Made by a program: the position numbers and the translations under genes
Virus record (IMG/VR): IMGVR_UViG_3300046543_000407
Location: 1 to 22,896 of that record
Length of the DNA stretch: 22,896 bases
Direction: 5' to 3' (one strand)
DNA from: a virus
Notes under the pieces: generated by a model
Told to the model about the DNA's origin: nothing
Database searches by the model: none
The model's input: only the letters and a program-made list of their open reading frames with translations
Part shown: in pieces, positions 6,806 through 13,478 of the stretch
How the letters are laid out: each line of letters begins with the position of its first letter
Numbering within the stretch: the stretch's first letter is position 1

Positions 6806-9469
6806 CTATGGTGAGATGTCATTACGATCAAGTTCTGAAGGTGGCAGAGGGCCCCATACAGCCTCGGAGTCATAATCGGCCCAGTCTTCGTCAGCACGAT
6901 CTCTGTCAACACCCTGGTAACTGTCGGCCGTTCCCATTCCATCTCCGGGTGGAGGCACGATCGGCTTACGTACCAATAGTTCAAGGTTGCGACGGCTAGT
7001 TCTGATCGCATCAAGCACGGCGGTGCTTGGGACCCACCATTCGTCTGCATGATTGGCAGGAGGAACATAGTCATAGGGAAACTCCTTCGGATTGCGGTAT
7101 ATGTTCCAGCGTCGTCCTACATCTGCCTCGGCAAGAAAAGGTATCTCGGTTAGACCCCAGGATGGCGCTATCGATTCCATGCACTTAGTGATCACGTACT
7201 TGGCGAAACTTATCAGCTCTGGGATGTCTGGACATTCGAACATTACTTCGTCGTGTACTTCATTGCAAGGGTACACGCCGTAGGGTCTGAGTAGTGGTGT
7301 TGCCTTTATACCACCATGCAAGCAGATGTCATGGGACATTGATTGATGCGGGAAGTTACTGGCCTCGTTCTGAAGGTTCGATACATTCTCCCTCGTCACT
7401 AGCCAATGTCGCTTTCGTCGTCCAAACATAGTTACCAGGTTCTGTCCTTTGATAGGTGCATTACGACACTTAGTCATGAAGTCCCACGCCTTAGGAGATC
7501 GGCTAGCCCACTTGTCAATGAATGACTGAGCTACAGGCAAAGCGATCCTGAACTCCTCAGCGATGCTAGGCGCCTGTCGTCCATACACGATGCCGAAGTT
7601 AACTGCCTTCGCTCGGATTATTTGCTCGTATCCTTCGTAGGTCTTGTCTCGTCCTCGTGAGAGCCACCCTGGGTAGAACTCTTCTGCAGTCTCCCAATGA
7701 AGCTTTCTCTTGCTGCCTGGTGCGTATACGCCAAGCAAGTAATCGTCCCCCGAAAGTATCGCGAGACTTCGGAGCTCGGCTTGGTTGAGATCTGCCTTGA
7801 TGAATACATGGCCCGGTGGCGCCATATACATCCCCCTGATACTGGTACCTCGGGGGATATTTTGCATATTGGGTCCCCGACTAGATAGCCTTCCAGTGCG
7901 GGTACCGTGTATAAGAAACGTAGGGTGCACACGACCATCAACGTTCACATTCCTTTCTAGCGAGGTCACGTACGTGCTCTTTGCCTTAGCAGCCTTGCGA
8001 AACCCTAGTAAGGCTAGTACTGCAGGATGCTTAGGCAGAGCATCAAGTACTTCCCGTCGAGTCGATCTGTCATTAGGCTTAGGCGGCTTGAGCTTCAGCC
8101 TATCCCAGAACAGATGTGCAAGCTGCTTGGGGCTGTTCGGGTTAATCTCACCAATGAGGCCGCTAGCTCTCGCTGTCTGCTGCATCTGGATATAGGCATG
8201 ATCGATCTCGCGCTGCAATACTTTCGACTGATGCTGTACCCTATTCTGGCAGACCATCAAACCTCGAGTCTCGACCTGATATAGGAACTCGCTAGCTGGC
8301 ATCAAGGTCTTGGTATAGAGCTTTTCCATGTTAGCGTCAGCAGCCACTCGAGGTCTAAAGACTCTGAAGATCTGGAGGGTATTGCTTGTATCGAGTGCAA
8401 GGTAATGGTACAAGACTGGCCTGGGAATAACACGGAAGCTAGTTTTTCGATTGGGCAGCCAGGGCTTAAGCATGCGTTTGTAGTCTGGAGCCCCGAGGAT
8501 ATCGTTCCCGATCTGCTCGAGATCGTGGATTCCACCTTGCTCGTCAATTGTGTAAGACATAAGCATCGTGTCATCATCGCACCTAGCCTCCGGTATTTCT
8601 CGCCTCATGAACCGCATGTCGAACTTACCGTTATGCCAGATGAATCTAGGTCCGGACTGCTGGAATAACGGCATGAGATGTTTGGTGAGCTCACCTGGAA
8701 CGATGTATACTAGTTCAGGACTTGCACATAGACCTACAGCTAGTATCTCATCTGTCAGGTGATTGAAGCCCCCTGTCTCAGTATCGCACGCGATAAAATC
8801 GTTATCTTTCAACAGGTTACACAGTTGAGATACTTGGTACCTGTTTCTGAGCACGAGCCATCTTGGCGTCACTTCTTTCTTGCGAGGTCCACCTGCCAAT
8901 AATGACGAGGCGTAGCGAATGTCCTCTTTGAACAGTCGATAGTTTCCAGTACCCCTCAGGAGCGCAGCCGGGTGGATAACAGGCAGTAAGCCATTCGATG
9001 CTAGGTCGCTTGATAAGAGCTGCCCACGTATTTGCGTGATCTTGTAACCATAATTCCCAGTCAACGAGCGTAATGCAAAGTTCCCCATCGCAACTACTAA
9101 ACGGCGGGGGAATTGTTGTACCTGACTTCTCAATCGCATAGAGCAAGCTTGAGTGGCTCTTAGGACGATGGCGAGTCTTTTCTGTGTATCCTTCTCCTGA
9201 GGAGGTAGGCACTGACAAGCGTTCAGAATCAGTACGTTGTCTGGATCCCATTCTGGCATCTCCCTCGCTAGAGTCTTCCAGAACACTTCCCCGCTCGGTC
9301 CCACTAGAGGAATCTTATGCTGGATCTCTTGGATCCCTGGAGCCTCACCTACGAACACGATAGGTGCTTCTGGATTGCCACGTGAGCCTACTTTCGGCCC
9401 TCCGTATGGACAATTAGGACAAGCTAGTCTTTCTGTTGCATGGACTATTGGTGGCCCTGCTAGCCGCAT
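6806..9469 (-). CDS. DNA polymerase I-type replicative polymerase with N-terminal uracil-DNA glycosylase-like domain
   Basis: 887 residues behind a strong Shine-Dalgarno (AAAGGAGGAG). Residues 1-195 match family 4/5 uracil-DNA glycosylases: GEAPG at 41-45, HPAALLR at 166-172, and cysteines 17, 20, 85 (or 87) and 109 placed like the four 4Fe-4S ligands of family 4. Residues 200-380 are a DnaQ-type 3'-5' exonuclease: D229/E231 (DTETGG), HNGKFD (D284), and Y356xxxD360. Residues 385-790 are a family A polymerase: motif A with D560 (DLNQAELR), motif B with K621 and NFGIVYG, and motif C HDE 739-741. No 5'-nuclease domain is present. Motif A has Leu and Ala where E. coli Pol I has Tyr and Ile. The C-terminal 100 residues are a poorly conserved Pro/Asp-rich tail. 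It is the distal gene of the deazaguanine operon, which suggests a polymerase copying modified DNA. Confidence 0.93.
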   Translation of the reverse strand: MRLAGPPIVHATERLACPNCPYGGPKVGSRGNPEAPIVFVGEAPGIQEIQHKIPLVGPSGEVFWKTLAREMPEWDPDNVLILNACQCLPPQEKDTQKRLAIVLRATQACSMRLRSQVQQFPRRLVVAMGNFALRSLTGNYGYKITQIRGQLLSSDLASNGLLPVIHPAALLRGTGNYRLFKEDIRYASSLLAGGPRKKEVTPRWLVLRNRYQVSQLCNLLKDNDFIACDTETGGFNHLTDEILAVGLCASPELVYIVPGELTKHLMPLFQQSGPRFIWHNGKFDMRFMRREIPEARCDDDTMLMSYTIDEQGGIHDLEQIGNDILGAPDYKRMLKPWLPNRKTSFRVIPRPVLYHYLALDTSNTLQIFRVFRPRVAADANMEKLYTKTLMPASEFLYQVETRGLMVCQNRVQHQSKVLQREIDHAYIQMQQTARASGLIGEINPNSPKQLAHLFWDRLKLKPPKPNDRSTRREVLDALPKHPAVLALLGFRKAAKAKSTYVTSLERNVNVDGRVHPTFLIHGTRTGRLSSRGPNMQNIPRGTSIRGMYMAPPGHVFIKADLNQAELRSLAILSGDDYLLGVYAPGSKRKLHWETAEEFYPGWLSRGRDKTYEGYEQIIRAKAVNFGIVYGRQAPSIAEEFRIALPVAQSFIDKWASRSPKAWDFMTKCRNAPIKGQNLVTMFGRRKRHWLVTRENVSNLQNEASNFPHQSMSHDICLHGGIKATPLLRPYGVYPCNEVHDEVMFECPDIPELISFAKYVITKCMESIAPSWGLTEIPFLAEADVGRRWNIYRNPKEFPYDYVPPANHADEWWVPSTAVLDAIRTSRRNLELLVRKPIVPPPGDGMGTADSYQGVDRDRADEDWADYDSEAVWGPLPPSELDRNDISP

Positions 9470-9592: not shown

Positions 9593-10411
9593 TTACAGTA
9601 GTTGTTTACCTGGTACTCTGCCTGGAGCTTGCTTCTCGAACTGAAGCCATCCCCTTACCAGACCGAGATTGGCCAGCGTCTCTGGGTAAATGTGGGATGT
9701 CGCGTTCTCCCACCAATCACTTCTGGGGACATGTGTCTTCTGGTGTCTGTTGATCATCTGTCTGTGTTGACCCATCCTCAGAGGCACAGCTGAGTCAATC
9801 CCCATTACTCCTGGCAGTCTACAACAGGCGAGATCATCCTCCATGTCGTCGCTGAAGCCGAGTAGGTGGATGAATGGACCGTGACGTCGATAGGCTAGGT
9901 GCATATCGAAGTCATCCCAGATCCACTTGGTGAATTCTAGGCGACTCCCTAGTAGTTCTGTGATATGCCTTGGGACTCCCCAACATCCTACTCCCTCGAT
10001 GTATCGTAGCTCTTGTGCGCTCTTCTGCAGCTCGGCGAGAGTTTGGCCCTGTGGAACAGCCATATACATCGTCTTGTTGAAGTCAATGAACTCGTGGTAC
10101 TGATCTGCCGCCATGAAGCTGAGCTCGAGAGTCTGGTCGAACTCACGTATCATGTCAGGCAGGACCACCACTTGGGACGGAACTATCTCTAGAGCCCTAC
10201 GCATAGTTCGAGCATCAACAGGATAGCCAAGCTCAATGATACTATTGTCCATGACAATAAAGGATCCTGGCGGGAGAAGGTCCTTATACAGGTGTGGGTG
10301 ATCAACGACGTCATGAGCGAGAAGAAGATGGTATCGACCGACGACATGCTCACCCATCTCGCGAAGTGCGCGTAGTACTTGTGGTGGTGCTACTGGTGCA
10401 AACTGGGTCAT
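9593..10411 (-). CDS. dpdA: DpdA-like DNA (7-deazaguanine) transglycosylase
   Basis: 272 residues from ATG 10411, 5 bases after the preceding gene's stop and preceded by GGAGAAGGAG at a long spacing. ATG 10447, inside the preceding gene, remains possible and would give 284. The protein looks like a compact TIM-barrel relative of tRNA-guanine transglycosylase, as in phage DpdA proteins. It has MDNSIIELG (D55), LPDMIRE (D86), VPQGQT, and near the C-terminus GIDSAVPLRMG, which resembles the TGT active-site segment preceding the P-(T/L)-R turn. DpdA enzymes exchange guanine in DNA for preQ0 or a derivative. The clustering with folE, queD, queE and queC, which together make preQ0, is the strongest support; a tRNA-modifying TGT normally has a C-terminal zinc site that I do not see here. 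Exact catalytic residues are inferred. Confidence 0.8.
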   Translation of the reverse strand: MTQFAPVAPPQVLRALREMGEHVVGRYHLLLAHDVVDHPHLYKDLLPPGSFIVMDNSIIELGYPVDARTMRRALEIVPSQVVVLPDMIREFDQTLELSFMAADQYHEFIDFNKTMYMAVPQGQTLAELQKSAQELRYIEGVGCWGVPRHITELLGSRLEFTKWIWDDFDMHLAYRRHGPFIHLLGFSDDMEDDLACCRLPGVMGIDSAVPLRMGQHRQMINRHQKTHVPRSDWWENATSHIYPETLANLGLVRGWLQFEKQAPGRVPGKQLL

Positions 10412-10416
10412 GGTGT

Positions 10417-10605
10417 TTAGATTAGCTCCTTCTCCATAGCGAGCCATTCGGGCATCGTCATCACCTTAGCCCTGTCGTCCCACTCGCATTGGCTCTTAGG
10501 CAGCCAGACCTCCTTGTTTCCGTCGTAGAAGTGGTATGCTCTATCTGTCTCGTATGGAGCACACAGCTCACCAGAGATGTCTACAAGCTCACGACGATTT
10601 GCCAT
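10417..10605 (-). CDS. Small conserved phage protein between folE and dpdA, unknown function
   Basis: 62 residues, ATG 10605 behind AAGGAGAT, which overlaps the folE stop; it ends 5 bases before the dpdA-like ATG. The sequence is a compact alternating pattern (ELVDISGEL, then YHFYDGNKEVWLPKSQCEWD, then MTMPEWLAMEKELI) that I have seen in small phage proteins, where WLPKSQ..WD and a C-terminal PEWLA.EK.LI are the conserved parts. It looks like a small beta-barrel followed by a helix. No catalytic residues are evident. Its tight placement inside the modification operon suggests co-regulation and perhaps an accessory role (sequence recognition, DNA delivery), but that is a guess. Confidence 0.75.
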   Translation of the reverse strand: MANRRELVDISGELCAPYETDRAYHFYDGNKEVWLPKSQCEWDDRAKVMTMPEWLAMEKELI

Positions 10606-10608
10606 CGG

Positions 10609-11217
10609 TCATCTCCTTGACCGATTGATGATGCTGAAGAACTCCGATCGGGCTGCTGGTACATCTCTGAACACGCCACGGACGCAGGATGTAGTGGAAA
10701 TTATCTCGGGTGTGTTGATACCTCGGCACGCCATGCAGGTGTGCATCGAGTCGATTACGCAGATGACCCCTTTGGCGCGGGTATGCGTGTTGAGTGTATC
10801 CGCTATCGTCTCGCATATACGCTCCTGCATGCTAGGCTTACTGAGACTGATTGCGTCCACTAGGCGAGCTAGTTTGCTGAGCCCTACGACCTTACCATCT
10901 GGGATGTACCCTAGGAAGGCACTACCTGTAGCAGGGAGTAGGTGATGTTCACACATCATCCTAAACGGGATGTTAGATTGGACGACCAAGCCGTGGATGC
11001 CTTCAGCGAGCGGTCCGTCGAATAGATCACCTAAGACTTCGGCAGCATCACATGGCTGGTTGAACTCGTACAGATACCGGAGCAATCTGCTAGGAGTTTT
11101 ACTGTACGCTTCAGCACCGAGGTTAGGACCGAATACGTACTCCAGTAGGTATCTGATGTGTATTTCAGGATCGTAGTATTCGGCTCTTCCGTCATTCGTT
11201 ACTCTGTAGTCGTCCAT
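10609..11217 (-). CDS. folE: GTP cyclohydrolase I
   Basis: 202 residues, the usual length. FolE converts GTP to 7,8-dihydroneopterin triphosphate, the first step toward both folate and 7-deazaguanines. The zinc site is visible: C89 and H92 in CEHHLLP and C161 in MHTCMACRG. The other signatures are complete: PSRLLRYLYEF near the N-terminus, GYIPDGKVVGLSKLARLVD at 103-121, and QERICETIADTL. This corresponds to the type IA enzyme rather than QueF, which shares the tunnel fold but has a different signature. It starts 6 bases after the queE stop and its stop lies in the Shine-Dalgarno of the next gene. Given its neighbours, the job is to feed QueD during infection rather than to make folate. Confidence 0.95.
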   Translation of the reverse strand: MDDYRVTNDGRAEYYDPEIHIRYLLEYVFGPNLGAEAYSKTPSRLLRYLYEFNQPCDAAEVLGDLFDGPLAEGIHGLVVQSNIPFRMMCEHHLLPATGSAFLGYIPDGKVVGLSKLARLVDAISLSKPSMQERICETIADTLNTHTRAKGVICVIDSMHTCMACRGINTPEIISTTSCVRGVFRDVPAARSEFFSIINRSRR

Positions 11218-11223
11218 GATACG

Positions 11224-11952
11224 TTACTTCCCTTTCATGTTACCCCAGAGCATAGCATGCAGCTGCGGAAGAACTGTTACGTCAGTTAGCTCTGACTTTC
11301 CTATAGTTTGTTCTGTGAGCCACCTATAGCGCTCCATGATCTCGGTGGTCATGAGGAAAGGTGATCGGCCTTCTGCATGCACTTCGGTACCGCATGAGAT
11401 ATAGAACGGTACTCCAGGATAACGCATGTGGATGCTCACGGCGAACTCAAGGTCGTCCTCGTCAAACACAACTACCTTGAAGGCTATCTTGCTGTACAGA
11501 TCGGCGAACTGATCGAGGATTGTATAGTCTGTCCTGCTAGACATACCAGACGAAGGGGGCTTAGGAGAACAGGTGACCAGATCACAGTACTTCAGCCAAG
11601 GGTTGAAGTAAGCTCCCTGTGTCTCCACCGCTATCTGAAGTCGAAGATCCATGCCGATCATGAGGGTGAGTCTCTTGAGATCCCAGTGCAGAGGATCGCC
11701 ACCGCTTAAGGTGACCCATTGGGCACTTTGGGAACCTCCAAGTTCGTGGACGCTGCTTATGATCTCGTCTTCGTCCATCCGTTTGGCAGTGTTGTGTATG
11801 AGATCCGGGTCCACAGCGTGCATGCTGTCACACCAGGAGCATCGATAGGAGCATCCTGCGAATCTGATGAAGTGACTGGTTTGCCCGATGAGGGCACCCT
11901 CTCCTTGGATTGTAGGTCCGAATATCTCGGACACGAGGAGTTTATCCGGCAC
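11224..11952 (-). CDS. queE: 7-carboxy-7-deazaguanine synthase (radical SAM)
   Basis: GTG 11952 is preferred because GGAGG lies five bases upstream of it. The longer GTG at 11970 would include that Shine-Dalgarno in the coding region. The result is 242 residues, overlapping the queD end by 11 bases. QueE converts 6-carboxy-tetrahydropterin to 7-carboxy-7-deazaguanine. The N-terminal IFGPTIQGEG is a QueE signature, followed by the cluster-binding C34, C38 and C41 in the shortened CSYRCSWCD motif (CX3CX2C) for the 4Fe-4S cluster and S-adenosylmethionine. LSGGDPLHWDL is the radical-SAM GGE-type loop with Asp in place of the usual Glu. TCSPKPPSSG is also typical. Third gene of the deazaguanine set; all expected core motifs are present. 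Confidence 0.94.
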   Translation of the reverse strand: MPDKLLVSEIFGPTIQGEGALIGQTSHFIRFAGCSYRCSWCDSMHAVDPDLIHNTAKRMDEDEIISSVHELGGSQSAQWVTLSGGDPLHWDLKRLTLMIGMDLRLQIAVETQGAYFNPWLKYCDLVTCSPKPPSSGMSSRTDYTILDQFADLYSKIAFKVVVFDEDDLEFAVSIHMRYPGVPFYISCGTEVHAEGRSPFLMTTEIMERYRWLTEQTIGKSELTDVTVLPQLHAMLWGNMKGK

Positions 11953-12502
11953 TTGCTCCTCCTGCACCACCAGTCGGCACCGAGACGTACGAGTGAGAAG
12001 GGAAGATGGCTACGCTGTTAGGCGTCTCCCATACATACAGTCGGGTGAGTTTGAGATTAGGGTCGTGCTGTTCGATGGGAATCCTTAGCCGTGAGAACCA
12101 GAACTCCGCTAAGTGCTCAGCAGTTGGAACGAATGGAACCACTAGCAGCTTGAACTGACCACGCTGTTTGTCCTCGGGAATGAAGCACCACCCTTCATTC
12201 TCGCAGACCTTTGTGACCTTTTCTATCTCGAACTTGTCAAGAAAGCTGGTCAGCAAGTCGTCCTTGACCCACAGGCATAGACCGTGATCACCGAAGTCAT
12301 GGATCTGTGACATCATGAACTGCTTCAGGAAGCCGAAGTCTACCACCATCCCAGTCTCGACGCCTTTAGTCTGTAGCTTGAGAGACCTGACTTCTGCTTC
12401 AATCACGTATCGATGGCCGTGAAGGTTCCAGCACTTTGAGCCATGTGTTGGCACACGATGCCCCATGTCGATCTCAATAGTACGCCTGATGCTAAACGAC
12501 AT
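11942..12502 (-). CDS. queD: 6-carboxy-5,6,7,8-tetrahydropterin synthase
   Basis: 186 residues, longer than the usual 120-140. QueD turns dihydroneopterin triphosphate into 6-carboxy-tetrahydropterin, the substrate of QueE. Zinc ligands H15, H28 and H30 and the catalytic C24 are seen in MGHRV and CWNLHGHRY. MVVDFGFLK carries the conserved Asp-Phe, DHG (72-74) supplies the catalytic Asp/His, and PTAEHLAEFWFSRL the conserved Glu. The extra length comes from an internal insertion between the DHG region and PTAEH (about residues 75-130) and a short C-terminal tail rich in Gly and Ser. The tail end overlaps the queE start. The insertion is seen in some phage and bacterial QueD homologues; I regard the enzyme as probably active. 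Confidence 0.94.
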   Translation of the reverse strand: MSFSIRRTIEIDMGHRVPTHGSKCWNLHGHRYVIEAEVRSLKLQTKGVETGMVVDFGFLKQFMMSQIHDFGDHGLCLWVKDDLLTSFLDKFEIEKVTKVCENEGWCFIPEDKQRGQFKLLVVPFVPTAEHLAEFWFSRLRIPIEQHDPNLKLTRLYVWETPNSVAIFPSHSYVSVPTGGAGGASAG

Positions 12503-12522: not shown

Positions 12523-12723
12523 CTACTGGTAGAGTCTTGCCCTCACTGCACAGTCTTTCGCCTCTAGCAGCTTGCGTAGTGCTACTGTTCGCTCTGGGTT
12601 CCTGGGTAGGATGTTCACAAGATCGTGTGCCAGATCGTGGAACCGTTGAGAGACGGTTTGAAGATTATCGGGCAGATGTTCGTAGCCGAAGAACTGCAGT
12701 AGTGGTTCTTGTTCTGGTGTCAT
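12523..12723 (-). CDS. Acb2/Tad1 hairpin-like small protein, candidate cyclic-nucleotide sponge
   Basis: 66 residues from ATG 12723, which has AGGAGCAAGAG just upstream; the open frame continues farther upstream over queC, but that part is low-complexity and overlaps queC. The protein reads as two helices: a front with FFGYEHLPDNLQTVSQRF, a middle LAHDLVNILP and a C-terminal helix ERTVALRKLLEAKDCAVRA. This pattern (HLP..LQ.VS..F..LA......LP...ERT.ALRKLLEAKDAAVRA) is widespread in small phage proteins and, as I recall, belongs to the group named after the Acb2/Tad1 hairpin. Acb2 binds cyclic di- and trinucleotides and blocks CBASS; Tad1 binds cADPR-type signals of Thoeris. The family membership is from memory and function in this member is inferred. 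It lies 32 bases after queC and 20 before queD, in the modification operon. Confidence 0.72.
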   Translation of the reverse strand: MTPEQEPLLQFFGYEHLPDNLQTVSQRFHDLAHDLVNILPRNPERTVALRKLLEAKDCAVRARLYQ

Positions 12724-12755
12724 CTCTTGCTCCTGCTCCTGTACCTGTGAAGGGC

Positions 12756-13478
12756 TCACGCTGCATACCTTGTGGGATCGTAGACGCCTGAGTTGACGAA
12801 GGCTTCCTTGCGAGCAATGCATGTAGGACATTTGCCGCAATGCAGCTCTTCTCCTTTGTAACACGACCACGTCATCTCGTACGGCACAGCTAGACCGAAG
12901 CCCTCCTTAACAATCTGGGCTTTACTGTAGTGCATGAATGGAGCTACCAGCCGTACTTTGAAGTACGTGCCAATGTAGATGGCGTTAGCCATCGCGCCAA
13001 TGAATTCCGGCGTACAATCTGGATATGCCCAGTTATGTGCATCTTCAGCGTGGGCTCCAAACCAGATCGTAGCTTCTCGTGGTCCACTATCTGAATCTGT
13101 ATTGCCTCTCAGGATCCACCCTTGAGCAATACCGGCGACCCTTGAGAGTAGCTGTCCATTCCTGAAAGGGACGTAAGTGGGAGACATCCCCTCGATCTTG
13201 TCGTATGAGGTCTCGGGGATAGGTGCGTGAGAGTCCGTGAGCATGCTTTTTGGAGGTCTAGACATATCAACGATAAGACGCTCTATGCCTAGATGCTCAG
13301 CCAGCTGATTGGCATAGTCAATCTCCTTCAGGTGTCTCTGACCATAGTTAATTGAGACGGAGATGACCTCATCAAACGCGTCCGTATCACGGATCGCCTT
13401 AGCAAGTGCTGTGGAGCTATCAACACCCCCACTATGAAGAACATACGTACGACGCGCTACGTGTGCTGTTGTCATCAT
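12756..13478 (-). CDS. queC: 7-cyano-7-deazaguanine (preQ0) synthase
   Basis: 240 residues, close to the usual 220-235. QueC uses ATP and ammonia to turn 7-carboxy-7-deazaguanine into preQ0. The PP-loop SGGVDS is at 16-21, INYGQRHLKE at 43-52 and the zinc site is C206, C214, C217, C220 (CX7CX2CX2C in SCYKGEELHCGKCPTC). GAHAEDAHNWAYPDC is the family's conserved middle segment. An insertion rich in Asp/Ser (about 124-136) is unusual. No glutamine amidotransferase domain is fused to it, unlike the Gat-QueC that leads to archaeosine in phage 9g. ATG 13478 is followed by a second ATG; only a weak AGGTGA is upstream. It is the first gene after the terminator at 13496-13534 and opens the deazaguanine operon. 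Confidence 0.95.
   Translation of the reverse strand: MMTTAHVARRTYVLHSGGVDSSTALAKAIRDTDAFDEVISVSINYGQRHLKEIDYANQLAEHLGIERLIVDMSRPPKSMLTDSHAPIPETSYDKIEGMSPTYVPFRNGQLLSRVAGIAQGWILRGNTDSDSGPREATIWFGAHAEDAHNWAYPDCTPEFIGAMANAIYIGTYFKVRLVAPFMHYSKAQIVKEGFGLAVPYEMTWSCYKGEELHCGKCPTCIARKEAFVNSGVYDPTRYAA

Follow-up and report, generated by a model that had tools for sequence, protein, structure and literature searches.

A gene for a 66-residue protein lies between the queC- and queD-like genes of a viral deazaguanine operon, and the question raised by this arrangement is what so small a protein does there. The window, that is, the whole stretch of DNA analyzed, comprises the 22,896 nucleotides of the viral record IMGVR_UViG_3300046543_000407. 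Acb2 and Tad1 are hexameric proteins that sequester cyclic nucleotides or gcADPR and block CBASS or Thoeris, and a sequence-only reading of the window had described the 66-residue protein as Acb2/Tad1-like and as a candidate sponge.

The translation of positions 12523-12723 on the minus strand is exactly MTPEQEPLLQFFGYEHLPDNLQTVSQRFHDLAHDLVNILPRNPERTVALRKLLEAKDCAVRARLYQ*, in which the motif HLPDNLQTVS occupies residues 16–25 and ERTVALRKLLEAKD occupies residues 44–57. An alternative, longer ORF opens at a GTG at 12870; the ATG at 12723 is preceded by a strong ribosome-binding sequence (CAGGAGCAGGAGCAAGAG-ATG), and the gene that begins there lies 32 bases past queC and 20 bases ahead of queD. 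A comparison with the nearest relative (L002) yielded a dN of 0.066 and a dS of 1.44; therefore, the 66-residue ORF is a real coding gene under strong purifying selection. In an alignment-based AF2 model (pLDDT 93.1), helices span residues 7–12, 19–38, and 43–65, with no strand, and the predicted fold is a short helix followed by a two-helix hairpin. The description of a 66-residue two-helix protein between queC and queD, including its coordinates, strand, translation, motif, and predicted helices, was thereby confirmed.

After queD come queE, folE, and two further genes, of 62 and 284 residues (Table 1). The product of the last gene is taken here, from the usual make-up of such operons only, to be a DpdA-like base transglycosylase, and it gave no match in Pfam/NCBIfam (E ≤ 1), PHROGs (E ≤ 0.01), or the PDB (E ≤ 1). 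A folE match was present in the fetched stretch of 26 of the 30 loci found with the DpdA-like protein profile. An ORF of 61 residues, similar to the 62-residue phrog_8389 gene, was observed in L273. Beyond the cassette, positions 6806-9469 (minus strand) encode an 887-residue protein, in which a uracil-DNA-glycosylase domain (PF03167, 1.8e-23) is placed ahead of a 3′-5′ exonuclease and a family A DNA polymerase (PF00476, 2.8e-62); among the 30 loci retrieved through the DpdA-like gene (L271–L300), the fetched stretch contains a match to this fusion protein in 29.

Table 1. The 66-residue protein gene and the surrounding deazaguanine genes, with positions in the window
Feature	Position	Strand	Basis or remark
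Hairpin-protein gene, 66 residues	12523..12723	(-)	phrog_1761 / phrog_5120 family; very probably divergent Acb2/Tad1-type
Shine-Dalgarno-like region CAGGAGCAGGAGCAAGAG, abuts the ATG	12724..12741	(-)	Sequence read directly
queC-like, upstream neighbor	12756..13478	(-)	PF06508 1.6e-49; TIGR00364 148.2 bits vs cut-off 150.3
queD-like, downstream neighbor	11942..12502	(-)	PF01242 1.4e-24; TIGR03367 67.5 bits vs cut-off 89.25
queE-like	11224..11970	(-)	TIGR03365 248.2 bits, exceeds cut-off 206.1
folE-like (GTP cyclohydrolase I)	10609..11217	(-)	PF01227 3e-43
62-residue gene, phrog_8389 (unknown function)	10417-10605	(-)	Just before the DpdA-like gene
DpdA-like gene, 284 residues, last gene of the cassette	9593..10447	(-)	Name from the usual make-up of such operons; folE companion in 26 of 30 loci

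Direct comparisons did not place the protein among the recognized sponges. The profile search against the Acb2/Tad1 hairpin family, which had been proposed as a check, was performed with the Pfam model PF24729 (Acb2_Tad1_hairpin; curated cut-off, 27 bits) and returned no match at E ≤ 1 for the 66-residue protein, with T4 Vs.4 as the positive control at 71.4 bits. Among 73 diverse family members, PF24729 was matched by six, none of which reached the cut-off (best value 0.022); models of unrelated families did equally well, with Occludin_ELL in nine (best 0.031) and HEAT_2 in two (best 0.0093). The motif HLP..LQ.VS, quoted in the sequence-only reading, is accordingly not a signature of the Pfam Acb2/Tad1 family. 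Aligned directly with Acb2 by hhalign, the family reached 0.4–0.5%, and with the limit raised to E ≤ 100 the family profile still recovered none of the 31 Acb2 rows. A search of PDB sequences with the protein itself gave a plant cytochrome subunit (E 0.049) and nothing else, the family profile found nothing there below E 0.33 (best 14.4 bits), and NCBIfam yielded DPS models only (0.016–0.02, far under their cut-offs). The N-terminal beta-sheet domain expected of Tad1 is absent from the protein, which has 66 residues and helices only in its model, and the Tad2-like family PF11195 had no match in the window record.

The residues of Acb2 that bind the ligand, which we take to be Tyr11, Lys26, and Arg67, were also considered. 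In the numbering of 8h2j, R67 is the Arg that precedes the Trp at the beginning of helix 2; it lies opposite P43 of the 66-residue protein, a position at which Arg is absent from the four commonest residues in the family; the N-terminal part, which would correspond to Tyr11 and Lys26, is not reliably alignable. The supposition that the trinucleotide residues of Acb2 are T56 and R67 and correspond to R50 and R61 was dropped, as it is T74 and R85 of 8h2j that face R50 and R61.

By sequence, the protein belongs to both phrog_1761 (4.2e-28) and phrog_5120 (8.5e-21), neither of which carries a function. Relatives were found in 324 of 50,697 phage records (tblastn, E ≤ 0.01), and a motif-pattern search identified at least 571 viral-contig stretches and 197 stretches of bacterial genome contigs encoding a family member, which is labeled hypothetical in nearly all of the annotated rows listed. 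Two alignments were prepared: A1, consisting of the window's protein and 69 of 80 viral loci (70 rows), and A3, consisting of the window's protein, 68 of 80 genome loci, and four phage proteins. The family profile comprises the 70 A1 rows and 55 genome loci, to which a variant (Qdiv) adds four divergent phage proteins; a single contig is behind each of the sets L008/L270/L272, L033/L276, and L269/L271.

Conservation in this family is concentrated in helix 2. In 13 named phages from tblastn lists, all but three of them selected by similarity alone with no motif filter, L52 and E54 occur in 13, E44, R50, K51, and K56 in 12, and D57 and R61 in 11, while H16 is kept in 10; the exceptions include phiAS5, with Q at positions 44 and 50, and RLP1 and DFL12phi1, which have N57 and lack R61. 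In 141 distinct sequences, E44, R50, L52, and E54 are conserved at 100% and K51, K56, D57, and R61 at 99%, values that are inflated because the loci were chosen by motif patterns. Such strong conservation suggests one conserved partner, which may be a small signal that is common to the hosts or else a protein of the host. A remote Acb2/Tad1 homologue might bind a protein through its charged helix-2 face, acting in host takeover or inhibiting a defense enzyme; the retention of the seven charged residues E44, R50, K51, E54, K56, D57, and R61 in 11 to 13 of the 13 phages is consistent with this, as are the lack of a counterpart to Arg67 of Acb2 and a zinc-finger-like extension in one homologue. 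The same conservation may also be explained by a common small signal, however, and the canonical hairpin genes found in sister-phage operons (described below), one of them beside a Tad2-like gene, point to a sponge role, so that binding to a protein is considered rather unlikely. The homologue with the extension, p62 of Ochrobactrum phage vB_OspP_OH (L313:765-1133), carries the N-terminal zinc-finger-like domain CPACGGTG...CNICEGHG and is encoded about 0.8–1.1 kb from the terminal repeat.

The gene neighbors of the family vary widely among loci, as determined in a survey that kept the family ORF in 56 of 160 loci at first and in 160 of 160 in the repeat. Some of these positions would fit a minor virion or morphogenesis protein: DumpsterDude gp8 is located between capsid and head-tail genes, Puppers gp19 between minor tail and lysin genes, and large genes resembling terminase or portal genes (names read from sequence) are found just downstream in some loci. 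In addition, the RLP1 record (L321:3417-3680, FR682616) labels the homologue “structural protein,” and a proteomics paper, which uses the gene numbers of RPP1, lists RPP1 gp28 as structural (PMC4193335). However, RPP1 orf28 is a different gene of 387 residues located just upstream, and the homologue is orf29, which is annotated as hypothetical; therefore, the RLP1 label seems to be shifted by one gene, and the assignment of a virion role from this label was dropped as an apparent numbering slip relative to RPP1. Since the gene studied here lies within a modification operon and the neighborhoods of the family are so variable, a virion role is very improbable.

Kinship to the sponges emerged through intermediates. 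The profile phrog_1454 is matched by both the 66-residue protein (E 3.1e-4) and T4 Vs.4, which is Acb2 (7.1e-4), in the same helix-2 register, and with the limit relaxed to E 10 it is matched by all 70 A1 members (best 6.8e-5); in 190 genomes, phrog_1454 had two weak matches. A second link is provided by gp14 of Gordonia phage Gray, which matches PF24729 (5.2e-12), phrog_1454 (1.1e-7), phrog_1761 (0.005), and phrog_717 (0.0098). This protein was chosen from a weak tblastn match (E 7), and its match to PF24729 is independent of that choice. Four further bridges were found from Gray, namely ChisanaKitsune, ScarletRaider, Sunfish, and Saintus, and all five exceed the PF24729 cut-off; gp10 of the Curtobacterium phage Sunfish is annotated as a “cyclic nucleotide sequestering protein.” A viral scan for relatives of Gray gp14 found none.

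When the family profile was searched against 25,922 sequences, in which the bridge genes were also present in the background as untrimmed ORFs, the five bridges were the top matches beyond the family itself (E 5e-4 to 0.046), and the first background match appeared at E 4.4. Conversely, a profile of the bridges picked up family members at about E 1e-4 and T4 Vs.4 at 0.023, its best value among the 6 of 31 Acb2 rows that it recovered at E ≤ 1. Profile alignment by hhalign gave 94% for family and bridges (score 40.6; maximum of 200 column shuffles, 16.8) and 77% for bridges and Acb2 (score 30.1; maximum of 200 shuffles, 21.0). With a set of 11 bridges, six of which were not tested against PF24729 and in which the AddiRose protein was trimmed to 110 residues, the values were 83% and 91%, respectively. 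The untrimmed protein of Curtobacterium phage AddiRose, gp60 (L263:614-1132), is a “cyclic nucleotide sequestering protein” of 172 residues with an extra C-terminal part, and its gene adjoins a nicotinate ribosyltransferase gene.

A search for structural neighbors was performed with the predicted model. In BFVD, the top six Foldseek matches are apparently family members (47–56% identity for five and 30% for the Dickeya phage JA13 protein), and the best 50 of 177 matches include 11 proteins named as Acb2/Tad1 hairpins (ranks 7, 10, 12, 13, 15–20, and 28); the best of these has a probability of 1.00 and an E of 0.027, and from rank 12 onward E is 0.69 or worse. Among the matches listed, Acb2/Tad1 hairpins are thus the best named viral matches outside the family. 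A control model of a genuine Acb2 (L175) retrieved 8h2j, 7uq2, and 8h2x at the top of the PDB (Z 8.0–8.4), and seven named hairpin proteins are common to the BFVD matches listed for it and for the 66-residue model. For the 66-residue model, Acb2/Tad1 chains were absent from the best 50 of 65 Foldseek PDB matches and from the VIA matches listed, which contain generic bundles only, indicating that, at the level of the predicted fold, the resemblance to Acb2 itself is weaker than that to the named intermediate hairpins.

The generic bundles, together with the lack of a direct PF24729, hhalign, or profile match to Acb2, are what would be expected if the similarity were coincidental and the protein an unrelated small helical hairpin. 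Such a coincidence is judged quite improbable, given that the bridges match the family as well as Acb2 with scores beyond every shuffle and lead the non-family matches in the search of 25,922 sequences, and that Gray scores 20.9 bits with the family profile as compared with the 14.4 bits of the best PDB sequence. The 66-residue protein fails the individual tests of Acb2, Tad1, and PF24729 and is read, via the intermediates, as a remote branch of the same superfamily; this distant kinship to the Acb2/Tad1 hairpins is regarded as very likely. Of the earlier claim that it shares the Acb2/Tad1 hairpin, the remote kinship stands, with support from the intermediates, the fold neighbors, and the alternation of genes within the operon described next, and membership in PF24729 and a direct match to Acb2 do not.

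The DpdA-like protein profile identified 30 viral contigs, which together with L002 gave 31 records to be searched, some of the contigs being short fragments. The 66-residue family is present in four of these records, PF24729 in two, both in none, and neither in 25. The eight closest relatives, defined as the window and seven records with a DpdA-like identity of at least 57%, include five with the 66-residue family, which is positioned between queC and queD in four and between folE and the DpdA-like gene in L276. This latter slot is occupied in L273 by a PF24729 gene (7.6e-18), and in L275 a PF24729 gene (2.1e-18) follows the DpdA-like gene; both records are devoid of the 66-residue family. 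Neither hairpin was detected in L271, the contig of which starts at queD, leaving the queC–queD slot uncovered, or in the remaining 24 records, several of which are short fragments. In L275:9101-9742 (G526:42408-42833), the canonical hairpin gene is directly followed by a Tad2-like gene (PF11195, 2.3e-23), forming a tandem of two sponge families. PF11195 was found in 1 of the 32 records searched, namely G526, and in none of 30 other viral records carrying the family. Outside the operon, PF24729 was observed beside the family in 0 of 30 viral records, 1 of 29 genomes, and 0 of 10 named phages, a mutual exclusion that is weak evidence because PF24729 is rare anyway.

The strongest functional hint obtained is that canonical and divergent hairpins replace each other within one operon, in one case at an identical slot, although this exchange was recognized post hoc and involves two contigs. 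Because the protein is remotely related to sponges and sister operons contain a canonical sponge gene, the 66-residue gene is probably a counter-defense gene. The proposal that the operon couples DNA modification with counter-signaling gained support from the PF24729 genes of L273 and L275 and the Tad2-like gene of L275; it does not extend to the family as a whole, the usual neighbors of which are not modification genes. This last observation also bears on whether the protein plays an accessory role in deazaguanine modification. Such a role could account for the occurrence of the gene, in two different slots, in the operon of five of the eight closest relatives (window included); yet 25 of the 31 DpdA-like records are without any hairpin (many showing other pathway genes, and some being fragments), and a match to the window's que genes is present in only 3 of the 80 viral loci of the family and in 0 of its 80 genome loci. 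An accessory role is therefore extremely improbable.

According to the reading favored here, which is given a probability of roughly 0.57, the protein represents a divergent, unannotated branch of the Acb2/Tad1 superfamily that acts as a nucleotide-signal sponge, with a function, ligand, oligomeric state, and helix-2 site that we infer. The hairpin protein would oligomerize, and the oligomer would bind a nucleotide alarm signal of host defense, whether a cyclic oligonucleotide or an isomer of cyclic ADP-ribose, via a conserved polar face on helix 2 (R50, E54, D57, and R61, with K51 and K56). The bound signal would be kept from its effector, and the surrounding deazaguanine operon would protect the phage DNA itself. 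It is more tentatively suggested that the family forms a separate, very large class of sponges, with its own pocket (R50/K51/E54/K56/D57/R61) for one alarm signal common to many bacterial phyla, and that these sponges would be interchangeable with Acb2/Tad1- and Tad2-type sponges in a counter-defense slot of a DNA-modification operon, one transcript thereby defeating both restriction and signaling immunity. No description of this branch was found in the open-licence PMC literature. If the sponge reading is correct, a testable function would be available for a family encoded by hundreds of phages and prophages and mostly labeled hypothetical, and the reach of viral sponges would extend well past the proteins recognized by the present Pfam profile. 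The operon comparison offers an example of DNA modification bundled with a likely signal counter-defense, in which the latter module is exchanged, and may serve as a guide to others.

Among the known systems, Acb2 (T4 Vs.4 and the protein of Pseudomonas phage p26; PF24729; 8h2j, 7uq2) is likewise a small phage protein in which, as described in PMC10419184, a short N-terminal segment precedes two long antiparallel helices. In T4 lacking acb1 and acb2, the SPO1 gene acb4 has been substituted for acb2 (PMC11722364). Through the intermediates, the two proteins share one helix-2 register, in which R50 and R61 lie opposite T68 and R79 of Vs.4. They differ in that no direct profile match connects them, the Arg67 that we take to contact the ligand of Acb2 is without a counterpart, and the LRKLLEAKD block is peculiar to the family of the 66-residue protein. 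Tad1 (anti-Thoeris 1) resembles the protein in its C-terminal pair of long helices, and the name of PF24729 pairs it with Acb2; however, it carries an N-terminal beta-sheet domain, according to the review PMC12043709, whereas the 66-residue protein has only helices in its model. The actinophage PF24729 proteins (Gray gp14, Sunfish gp10, and Mycobacterium phage Saintus gp45), which exceed the PF24729 cut-off and lack the LRKLLEAKD block, are the nearest relatives found outside the family, and hhalign aligns them with it over the whole hairpin.
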